From: Mariniflexile litorale
GTDB taxonomy: Bacteria; Bacteroidota; Bacteroidia; Flavobacteriales; Flavobacteriaceae
Direction of reading: 5' to 3'
Length of the DNA: 64,000 nt
Assembly (NCBI RefSeq): GCF_031128465.2
Contig: NZ_CP155618.1
Span: 2,055,501-2,119,500, forward strand
How positions within the stretch are numbered: position 1 is the stretch's first letter; every line of letters begins with the position of its first letter. This document shows positions 17,793-20,644 of this stretch, piece after piece. Both the position numbers and the translations under genes were made by a program. The notes beneath the pieces were generated by a model. That model ran no database searches. It saw only the letters and a list, made by a program, of their open reading frames with translations, and was not told the DNA's origin.

Positions 17793-17819
17793 AAAGCGAC
17801 CAATTGGTCGCTTTTTTTT
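17793..17819 (+). terminator. Intrinsic terminator of rimP-nusA-infB
   Basis: The perfect palindromic stem AAAGCGACCAATTGGTCGCTTT (17793-17814) is followed by a continuous T-run to 17819. The loop is minimal because the stem is a full palindrome. Confidence 0.85.
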
Positions 17820-18250
17820 ATGGAGTTAATTTATTTCTAGCTTTAAAACATGAAAGCCAGATTTTAGTAATTTATAATTAGAAGCTGGATATTTATAAGT
17901 GATGGTGAATGGGTGCTTTCAATGGTTAAAATATTACTTTGTTTTTATCAGTTATAAATTCAGGGCTGATGGCTGAACATTTATAGGTTACCAAATAATA
18001 GAGAAAAGTAATAAATATCTAATTACCATATTTTGTGTTTTACTATATAATTTGTTTTTCAAGGTGTTTATGTGCCACAAAAATAATTTTATTTCAATAC
18101 GTTTTAAGACGCTATTATCTTCTATTTATGCTCTAAATTTTACAAAAATTTATCCTATGTCCAATATGCTTGGAACTTGTATTTTGATCTATTTTATCGA
18201 CAAAAAGTAATATTTTATCGACAAAAAGCAAAATTATAATGATTTTTATG
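17820..18250. other. Long AT-rich non-coding stretch upstream of the lipoprotein triplet
   Basis: I find no gene of credible length or RNA gene here. The only clear structure is the 21-bp tandem direct repeat at 18191-18232. Its size suggests an extended regulatory region for the following lipoprotein genes. Confidence 0.5.
18191..18232 (+). repeat. Two tandem 21-bp direct repeats upstream of the lipoprotein promoter
   Basis: ATTTTATCGACAAAAAG followed by 4 bases occurs twice in succession (18191-18211, 18212-18232); the first 17 bases are identical. The 21-bp period is two helical turns. The pair lies about 20-60 bases upstream of the -33 element at 18251, a typical position for activator sites. 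Proteins such as LytTR-type response regulators bind direct repeats at this spacing; that link is inference. Confidence 0.6.
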
Positions 18251-18280
18251 TTGATACTTCTAAATGAAAACATATATTCG
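18251..18280 (+). promoter_or_regulatory. Promoter of the collagen-like lipoprotein genes
   Basis: TTG (18251-18253) is followed by 19 bases and TATATTCG (18273-18280), one base from TAnnTTTG. The lipoprotein start codon lies 30 bases further on. Confidence 0.6.
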
Positions 18281-18310
18281 CCTCAATATTAACTTAAACC
18301 AAATTTAATT

Positions 18311-18997
18311 ATGAAAAAAAATTATTTAAAAATTATTAGTAAAACTATTTTAATCACTTGTTTAGGAGTTTTTCTTATTAGTTGTGAAGGTGAAGATGGA
18401 ATTAATGGAGAAAATGGAATTAATGGAGAGCAAGGAATAGATGGAGAAAATGGAATTAATGGAGAGAATGGTGTTGGCTTTGATGAGTTAGTAAAGTACG
18501 GCTCTATAACAATAAATGTAGCAGGAACAAGACCTGATGATGTAGCTTTTACGCAGGAGCATGAATTTAGGTTTATACCCAACTATAGTGGTTCAAACGA
18601 TGTTTCTTTTGAAGATTCGGATATTGAATTCGATGTCACACGATTTATTAATACTCCTGATGCTGATAGTAATAATTCTATTTATGCTTATTTAGGAGTT
18701 GAGGATGCAGGATTAGAAACTCAAAGCTTTTATTTTGAAATCGAATTTAATGGTTTTTCAATAGTTTCAGATGATTTAAAATATTTTCAATTGTGGGGGT
18801 ATTATTCATCGGAAAACTCTGATGTAACTAATTTTAGCATCACAAACTATAGCTTTAATGATACTACTAATAATCTAACCTACTCTTTTACCATGGATAT
18901 TGAAGAAGATGTGGCTACAGGTAACGATTTAACAGTGTCTGGTACTGTTAATGTAATCGTTTTGGAGCGTCTACAAAGCGGTCCTATTCTTTTATAG
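18311..18997 (+). CDS. Collagen-like repeat lipoprotein, copy 1
   Basis: This 228-residue protein has a lipoprotein signal peptide (MKKNYLKIISKTILITCLG, lipobox LISC, Cys25). About ten Gly-X-Y triplets follow (GED GIN GEN GIN GEQ GID and so on, to about residue 55), then a beta-rich domain of about 170 residues without a recognisable family. Gly-X-Y runs without Pro can still form bacterial triple-helical stalks, so a trimeric surface stalk with a C-terminal head is a reasonable inference. The acidic residues after the Cys (EGED) would suit surface export in Bacteroidota. It is the first of three tandem paralogues and lies nearest the promoter and direct repeats. Its function is not recognised. 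Confidence 0.8.
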   Translation: MKKNYLKIISKTILITCLGVFLISCEGEDGINGENGINGEQGIDGENGINGENGVGFDELVKYGSITINVAGTRPDDVAFTQEHEFRFIPNYSGSNDVSFEDSDIEFDVTRFINTPDADSNNSIYAYLGVEDAGLETQSFYFEIEFNGFSIVSDDLKYFQLWGYYSSENSDVTNFSITNYSFNDTTNNLTYSFTMDIEEDVATGNDLTVSGTVNVIVLERLQSGPILL

Positions 18998-19059
18998 ATA
19001 ATATGCATTTATATTTTATCTAACCCAAAAAGATAAATAATATTAAACCAAATTTAATT

Positions 19060-19743
19060 ATGAAAAAAAATTATTTAAAAATTATTAGTAAAACTATTTT
19101 AGTCAGTTGTTTAGGAGTTTTTCTTATTAGTTGTGAAGGTGAAGATGGAATTAATGGAGAGAATGGAATTAATGGAGAGCAGGGAATAGATGGAGAAAAT
19201 GGAATTAATGGAGAGAATGGCGTTGGCTTTAATGAATTAGCAAAATACGGCTCTGTAACAGTAAATGTAGCAGGAACAAGGTCTGATGATGTTGCTTTTA
19301 CGCAGGAGCACGAATTCAGGTTTATAAATAATGACAATGATGAAAATGATGTTTATTTTGGAAATTCGGATATTTATTTTGAAATAGGACGATTTTTTAA
19401 TACTCCTGATGCAGACTATAATAATTCTATATTAACTCAATTAGAAGTTAAGGATGCAGGGTTAGAAACTCAAAGCTTTTCTTTTGCAATCGAATTATGG
19501 GGTTTTTCAGTAGTTTCAGAAGATTTAAAATATTTTATATTCGACGACGAAAACAGCATATATACATCTGATGACCCTGGAGTAACGAATTTTAGTATCA
19601 CAAACTATAGCTTTAATGATACTACTAATAGAATAACTTACTCTTTTACCATGGATATTGAAGAAGATAATACTACAGGTAATAGTTTAACAGTTTCTGG
19701 TACTGTTAATGCAATCGTTTTAGAGAACATTCAAGATAAATAA
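19060..19743 (+). CDS. Collagen-like repeat lipoprotein, copy 2
   Basis: This 227-residue paralogue of the preceding gene follows after 62 bases. Signal peptide, lipobox (LISC) and Gly-X-Y stalk are almost identical to copy 1, including the non-coding bases just before the ATG. The C-terminal 45 residues (TNFSITNYSFNDTTN then YSFTMDIEED) are also conserved. The central head (about residues 88-170) diverges, with different acidic and aromatic residues. This conserved-ends, variable-middle pattern suggests duplication followed by diversification or gene conversion. No separate strong promoter is visible, so it probably shares transcription with copy 1. Function unknown. Confidence 0.8.
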   Translation: MKKNYLKIISKTILVSCLGVFLISCEGEDGINGENGINGEQGIDGENGINGENGVGFNELAKYGSVTVNVAGTRSDDVAFTQEHEFRFINNDNDENDVYFGNSDIYFEIGRFFNTPDADYNNSILTQLEVKDAGLETQSFSFAIELWGFSVVSEDLKYFIFDDENSIYTSDDPGVTNFSITNYSFNDTTNRITYSFTMDIEEDNTTGNSLTVSGTVNAIVLENIQDK

Positions 19744-19834
19744 CGGTTCTATTTATTAATATAATATGTAATATATATTCAAATTTTTGTCTAGTCCCAA
19801 AAAAGCGATATATTTTATAAACTTAACTTAAATT

Positions 19835-20506
19835 ATGAAAAAAAATTATTTAAAAATTATTAGCAAAACTATTTTAATTGCTTGTTTAGGGCTTTTTCTT
19901 ACTAGTTGTGAAGATGGTGCAGATGGAATTAATGGAGAGAATGGAATTAATGGAGAGCCTGGGATTAATGGAGAGAATGGAGAAAATGGTTTGGGCTTTG
20001 ATGATTTAGTAAATTACGGTTCTGTAACAGTAAATGTAGCAGGAACCAGGTTTGATGATGTTCCTTTTACACAGGAGCGAGAATTTAGGTTTTTACCTAG
20101 TGATTATGGTGGAAACGATGTCTATTTTGATGACTCGGATATTGTATTTGGGGTGGCAAGATTTTTTAATAGTTTTGATGCAGGACATTCTAATTCTATT
20201 TATGCTCAATTAGAAGTTCAGGATGCAGGATTAGAAACTCAAAGTTTTCATTTTCAAATCAGTTTTGCGGGTTTTTCAGTAGTTTCAGAAGATTTAAAGT
20301 ATTTTGAATTCTACGATTATTATAGTTCAAATAACTCTGATGTTAGTAATTTTAGTATTACAAACTATAGCTTTAATGATACTACTAATAGAATAACTTA
20401 CTCTTTTACCATGGATATTGAAGAAGATAATACTACAGGTAATCCTTTAACAATTTCTGGTACTGTTGATGCAATCGTTTTGGAAAACCTTGAAAATAGA
20501 ACATAA
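19835..20506 (+). CDS. Collagen-like repeat lipoprotein, copy 3
   Basis: This 223-residue third paralogue follows copy 2 after 91 bases. The signal peptide ends in LTSC with the mature protein starting CEDGADG. The Gly-X-Y stalk is slightly altered (GINGEPGINGENGENG, with one Pro in the Y position). The variable middle differs from both other copies, while the C terminus (SITNYSFNDTTNRITYSFTM) matches copy 2 most closely. The 3' flanks of copies 2 and 3 share a phrase (TTCAAATTTTTGTCTAGT), so the duplicated unit included downstream DNA. An intrinsic terminator about 100 bases downstream closes the cluster. Function unknown. Confidence 0.8.
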   Translation: MKKNYLKIISKTILIACLGLFLTSCEDGADGINGENGINGEPGINGENGENGLGFDDLVNYGSVTVNVAGTRFDDVPFTQEREFRFLPSDYGGNDVYFDDSDIVFGVARFFNSFDAGHSNSIYAQLEVQDAGLETQSFHFQISFAGFSVVSEDLKYFEFYDYYSSNNSDVSNFSITNYSFNDTTNRITYSFTMDIEEDNTTGNPLTISGTVDAIVLENLENRT

Positions 20507-20606
20507 CTAAGGGTTCTATTGATTCATATAATATGTGTATGTATTCAAATTTTTGTCTAGTTCAAAATAAGCAACACCTATTATAAAAGAATTAAATGTT
20601 TAAATT

Positions 20607-20644
20607 AAAGCTGAACAAGATAGCGCCTTGTTCAGCTTTTTTTA
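20607..20644 (+). terminator. Intrinsic terminator after the lipoprotein cluster
   Basis: The perfect 13-bp stem AAAGCTGAACAAG / CTTGTTCAGCTTT (20607-20619 / 20627-20639) has a 7-base loop and is followed by a T-run. Confidence 0.85.

Follow-up and report, generated by a model that had tools for sequence, protein, structure and literature searches.

Collagen-like lipoprotein trios in Mariniflexile litorale and Aquimarina as a possible three-chain surface unit

Three tandem genes of Mariniflexile litorale encode lipoproteins with a collagen-like stalk and a head domain of an undescribed family, and relatives of these genes in Aquimarina form triplets that are inherited and duplicated as units. 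Both the head family and its triplet organisation are real. At the M. litorale locus, one operon would encode three paralogous lipoproteins of the outer membrane that are probably exposed at the surface, each chain with an acylated Cys, a short stalk of the collagen type and then an all-beta head. The working unit in this head family would be a set of three. Most likely, the Gly-X-Y tracts of the three unlike chains twist together as a single heterotrimeric stalk, and its three different heads, placed next to each other, would form a composite tip that binds another surface or a ligand, in adhesion or recognition. We hold this reading of the locus, as a co-expressed three-chain surface unit with most likely a heterotrimeric collagen-like stalk, tentatively and at a little short of an even chance. 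Surface exposure, which we infer from the lipid anchor and the acidic start of the mature chains, is a conditional element of it, as are the triple helix, the heterotrimer and ligand binding. The case for a heterotrimer is weakest for the M. litorale proteins themselves, which may share the architecture by analogy.

The trio of Mariniflexile litorale and its head domain

The window, meaning the whole 64,000-nucleotide stretch of DNA that was analysed, belongs to a complete chromosome of 4.5 Mb. It contains three tandem, same-strand genes for lipoproteins with Gly-X-Y stalks, as the first-pass annotation had described, and their open reading frames confirm this (copies 1 to 3, with products w1, w2 and w3; Table 1). 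The three proteins are 74-77% identical in pairwise comparison. Each begins with a signal peptide, which is followed by a lipobox Cys at position 25 (read from the sequence), acidic residues, an uninterrupted Gly-X-Y stalk and a head of about 170 aa. The residues from the Cys onward, CEGEDG or CEDGAD, are rich in acidic residues and match none of the validated export consensus sequences K-(D/E)2, SDDDD and SDDFE (PMC5080379). The stalks match the Pfam Collagen model (PF01391) with E-values of 3e-4 to 1.3e-3, under the gathering score. Elsewhere on the same chromosome, an open frame of 508 aa (G000:C1:4117955-4118092, locus L004) has the signal peptide and the collagen stalk alone in common with the trio.

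Table 1. Features of the collagen-like lipoprotein locus (positions in the window)
Feature	Position	Strand	Remark
infB intrinsic terminator, left limit of unit	17793..17814	+	stem of 9 pairs, followed by a T run
Pair of adjoining 21-bp direct repeats before copy 1	18190..18231	.	TATTTTATCGACAAAAAG(T/C)AA
Copy 1 (w1), collagen-like lipoprotein	18311..18997	+	228 aa
w1 Gly-X-Y stalk	18389..18478	+	10 triplets
w1 head domain	18482..18994	+	
Copy 2 (w2)	19060..19743	+	227 aa; probable mosaic, copy 1 (5') + copy 3 (3')
w2 Gly-X-Y stalk	19138..19227	+	10 triplets
w2 head domain	19231..19740	+	modelled all-beta
Copy 3 (w3)	19835..20506	+	223 aa
w3 Gly-X-Y stalk	19913..19996	+	9 triplets
w3 head domain	20000..20503	+	
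Right limit of unit: intrinsic terminator downstream of copy 3	20607..20639	+	stem of 13 pairs, followed by a T run

Intrinsic terminators flank the trio, the one after infB being conserved also in congeners, and none was found between copies 1 to 3. Thus, the three genes are likely to be carried on a single transcript. The two 21-bp repeats, located 80 bp ahead of copy 1, are a candidate regulatory site, possibly an operator; the first-pass annotation had started the trio at 18191, which falls in these repeats and not in coding sequence. The neighbourhood between infB and the SPOR gene is conserved in all six genomes of the genus. However, the trio is present only in M. litorale, and the corresponding gap in the five congeners measures 65-858 bp and contains no remnants of it. 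The absence of the trio from a conserved neighbourhood indicates that it was gained in this lineage. A search with copy 2 for a phage or plasmid origin gave no tblastn match.

The ends of the three genes are more conserved than the middle, as had been noted before: dN is 0.08-0.12 in alignment columns 173-223 and 0.26-0.28 in columns 92-172. The DNA identity that reaches beyond the genes had been ascribed to recent duplication or active gene conversion. The overall dS of 0.27-0.37 makes the duplication no more than moderately recent. In a three-sequence mosaic test, copy 2 resembles copy 1 in its 5' part and copy 3 in its 3' part (p 0.0037 and 0.0047 by permutation, out of six tests). The flanks agree with this mosaic, since copies 1 and 2 share 17 bp before the ATG (TTAAACCAAATTTAATT) and copies 2 and 3 have about 60 bp in common downstream. 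The downstream identity had been reported correctly, and the identity before the start codon, claimed for all three genes, is not clear in copy 3. Some exchange between the copies is therefore likely. Gene conversion was also considered as the whole cause of the conserved ends and was rejected, because the ends do not have consistently lower dS. Synonymous divergence is fairly even along the genes (0.17-0.45 once the first 26 codons are set aside), so that the divergence in the middle of the head, where dN/dS is 0.58-0.92, is largely selective and not the outcome of very recent exchange.

The head gave nothing above threshold against Pfam, NCBIfam, PADLOC or PDB sequences. It is thus an undescribed domain with respect to these collections, in line with the earlier remark that it matches nothing recognised. 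Matches in PHROGs were considered as relatives of the head and rejected, since the stalk accounts for them. An AlphaFold2 model of the w2 head, built with seven sequences, is antiparallel and all-beta (pLDDT 86.4, pTM 0.84), and a second model, of a homologue at 38% identity, has the same strand order (pLDDT 81.1). Foldseek with the head model found no match in PDB or BFVD at E <= 0.001. In the VIA structure search, mycobacterial LpqH came first for both models (Z 7.9, rmsd 3.4, 109 residues; Z 8.4, rmsd 3.0, 106 residues), and the structural matches overall, with Z of 7.6-8.4, are about at the level of models without relatives. The predicted head thus has no structural relative clearly above noise, and a new fold is not claimed.

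In the w2 model, variable outward faces fall on residues 104-113, 123-131 and 139-147 (model strands 47-56, 66-74 and 82-90). Of the outward positions on these strands and the short strands that follow them, 14/18 are variable, against 6/35 elsewhere, in a grouping made post hoc; a simple contrast of core and surface strand positions showed no significant difference (p 0.27). Such clustering of variable residues on the outside of the model would fit a putative binding face.

Aquimarina triplets are inherited and duplicated as units

Profile searches detected the head family in 3 of 397 genomes from a family sample and in 3 of 395 from a phylum sample. Four of 249 genomes of genus g128 have it, some with just 2-3 Gly-X-Y triplets. 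In genus g177, taken as Aquimarina, it occurs in 16 of 66 genomes, as singles or triplets. Single-copy members lie after polA or between hppA and ppa, and some are decayed. Broken or truncated members were seen at ppa, polA and another locus (L083:5367-6076, L089:5523-5777 and L090:5409-5777), which shows that single copies decay. In open-licence papers on collagen-like proteins in Aquimarina or on flavobacterial lipoproteins, the family is not described.

Six Aquimarina genomes (G774, G800, G780, G775, G785 and G810) carry a triplet, here called A-B-C, with one gene per clade per genome in fixed order. Across these genomes A, B and C are each a separate clade, and a tree in which A, B and C of one genome form a clade is rejected (AU p 0.0005). 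The three chains are far apart from each other, with a mutual identity of 46-49% in G774, and their orthologues are under purifying selection (dN/dS 0.11-0.32). On these phylogenetic grounds, the A-B-C triplet is orthologous in the six genomes and has not undergone concerted evolution.

Duplication of whole triplets is seen in G810, whose 19 copies comprise a 12-gene array of four triplets, another triplet, A-B-C and a fourth gene behind A-B-C (L120:7285-7950) that encodes a head without a Gly-X-Y stalk. The four triplets of the array are arranged head-to-tail, and genes in the same slot are related. Among the five triplets t1 to t5, t2 tends to pair with t3 and t4 with t5, whichever slot is compared. 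A clade by slot has support for one slot (96/91) and is not rejected for the other two (AU p 0.18 and 0.27). A clade confined to one triplet is rejected in the case of t1 (p 0.012) and of t4 (p 0.0105). The first two slots stand in swapped order between t1-t3 and t4-t5. No remnants with one or two members were seen among the five triplets. Gaps are 21-70 bp within triplets against 194, 265 and 282 bp between adjacent triplets, as expected for separate three-gene operons; no triplet was found to have the Bacteroidota -7 promoter motif TAnnTTTG ahead of its first gene. Thus, the triplet is the unit of both inheritance and duplication in Aquimarina.

The surroundings of these genes have further features. 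A regulator gene lies directly upstream of A-B-C in three Aquimarina genomes (L074:7695-8801, L078:5388-6491 and L080:8516-9622); its LytTR domain was tested in the L074 protein, with which the L078 and L080 regulators cluster. Both flanks of A-B-C in the same three loci hold a cassette of DUF5777, YceI and a small protein. Another such regulator, with a Cache sensor domain, is encoded divergently upstream of the 12-gene array of G810 (L119:2412-3527). Copies 1-2 and copies 3-5 of an uncultured Aquimarina sp. lie on either side of genes for a response regulator and for a reg_prop hybrid kinase (L007:6795-10374). The trio of G400 (p3-p5) has stalks like those of A-B-C and sits on long branches that leave it only loosely placed in the tree.

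The trio of the window does not descend from A, B and C. The proteins w1 to w3 form a single clade (100/99) beside the ppa-linked Aquimarina genes (98/78), and therefore the three copies arose separately here, by independent triplication. The Aquimarina A-B-C triplet has one member from each of three groups, and w1 to w3 do not follow this rule. That the number three was reached twice independently supports a structural reason for it, but from only two cases.

One three-chain stalk or separate chains

The lengths of the stalks bear on how the chains are put together. From the Cys to the head, A, B and C measure 37, 36 and 36 residues in G774, G800, G780 and G810, against 28, 27 and 27 in G775 and G785. 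The difference of nine residues affects all three slots and maps to a block with Pro close to the N terminus. The stalks of single-copy Aquimarina members vary freely (30-42 residues when linked to polA, 33-45 when linked to ppa). The best account of a change by the same nine residues in three divergent chains is that their stalks run alongside one another. The change occurs in one pair of related species and may represent one episode. The stalks are short (8-14 triplets) and almost without proline, so that a stable triple helix is uncertain.

The genes may instead encode three independent homotrimeric adhesins. Duplication would then widen the range of ligands, and triplets would last since duplication acts on the operon as a whole; indeed, the co-duplication of triplets could be a by-product of operon duplication. 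The single-copy members at the polA and ppa loci must work alone, as homomers or monomers, and together with the short-stalked relatives they show that the head needs no partner. It also fits homotrimers that characterised bacterial collagens are of this kind (PMC8968730), and that the stalk of w3 is one triplet shorter than those of w1 and w2. However, stalk lengths shifted jointly in the three chains of G775 and G785 while single-copy stalks drift, and the five triplets of G810 left no one- or two-member remnant. Homotrimers are, on this evidence, rather unlikely.

If the Gly-X-Y tract were a mere flexible acidic spacer, the heads would be tethered, monomeric beta-barrels of a lipocalin-like or LpqH-like type, perhaps binding small hydrophobic molecules. 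The scarcity of prolines, the short tracts with interruptions and the relatives with 2-3 triplets would suit a spacer, and in the structure search both models scored best against LpqH, YceI, BcnB and barrels of the nitrobindin type. Yet these matches are close to the level of models without relatives, and the Gly register is kept at almost all triplets despite large sequence divergence, which makes a spacer distinctly improbable. Least probable of all is the interpretation in the first-pass annotation, that the proteins form an antigenic or recognition family and owe the variety of their heads to recombination between copies: the mosaic of copy 2, the raised dN/dS in the middle of the trio head and the variation on the outward face of neighbouring strands would agree with it, but the Aquimarina chains are old separate paralogues under purifying selection, without concerted evolution or exchange, and no further copies of the head that might act as silent cassettes exist on the M. 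litorale chromosome.

The observation of the trio in that annotation is thus confirmed and its interpretation partly supported. The triplet pattern of the Aquimarina relatives favours a three-chain unit over heads shuffled by recombination, and the number three is, in our view, the more informative feature. A broader claim would be that the family represents a natural bacterial heterotrimeric collagen, a three-chain receptor with triplet operons, a new head family and stalks matched between chains, independent of Pasteuria and reached separately in Aquimarina and M. litorale. We regard this broader claim as possible and, on balance, doubtful.

Comparison with known systems

The closest parallel in gene arrangement is found in the collagen-like proteins (PCLs) of Pasteuria ramosa, which are likewise encoded by three tandem, co-directional genes (McElroy et al. 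2011 via PMC13233619; PMC10329263) and are the only precedent for collagen-like triplets described in the open-licence literature searched. Three groups each contribute one member to a triplet there, in a specific order (PMC13233619), as in the Aquimarina triplets, and in both the groups are in fixed order and duplicated as units. The PCL triplets are tied there to the specificity of host attachment. The triplet organisation is described as apparently unique to P. ramosa and credited to host coevolution (PMC13233619), and the function of the triplets, and why only triplets track infectivity, are stated as unknown (PMC10329263). PCLs are Firmicute endospore proteins, whereas those described here are Bacteroidota lipoproteins, and the two are likened by gene arrangement and not by sequence; the head of the trio was found only in Flavobacteriaceae among the samples searched. 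Triplets in marine Bacteroidota are a second occurrence, which argues for a structural reason, namely heterotrimer assembly. If the heterotrimer is true, it would account for the occurrence of collagen-like genes in threes. The question is directly testable here, since the genes are short, six genomes have orthologous triplets, and a stalk change of nine residues has occurred naturally in all three chains.

Among proteins with three different chains, complement C1q (A, B and C chains; PMC5807628, PMC5153404) also combines a short collagen stalk with a globular head, takes its three chains from neighbouring genes and has chain-specific interruptions in the stalk. There is no homology, however: Pfam C1q had no match in the trio and 25 family members, and the present family consists of membrane lipoproteins with far shorter, proline-poor stalks, for which the heterotrimer is proposed. 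Mycobacterial LpqH is a lipoprotein like the trio but has no collagen stalk and only 5-18% identity, and its score close to noise makes the modelled likeness a lead only. Scl1/Scl2, Lcl and BclA resemble the trio in having a surface Gly-X-Y stalk and a non-collagenous globular domain (PMC8968730), and the trio matches NCBIfam bacterial collagen-like families weakly, through the stalk only. These proteins are anchored by LPXTG or in the exosporium, in contrast to the lipid anchor of the trio, are described as homotrimers (PMC8968730) and have heads unmatched to those of the trio. No earlier report of three different chains in one bacterial collagen-like stalk was found in open-licence papers.
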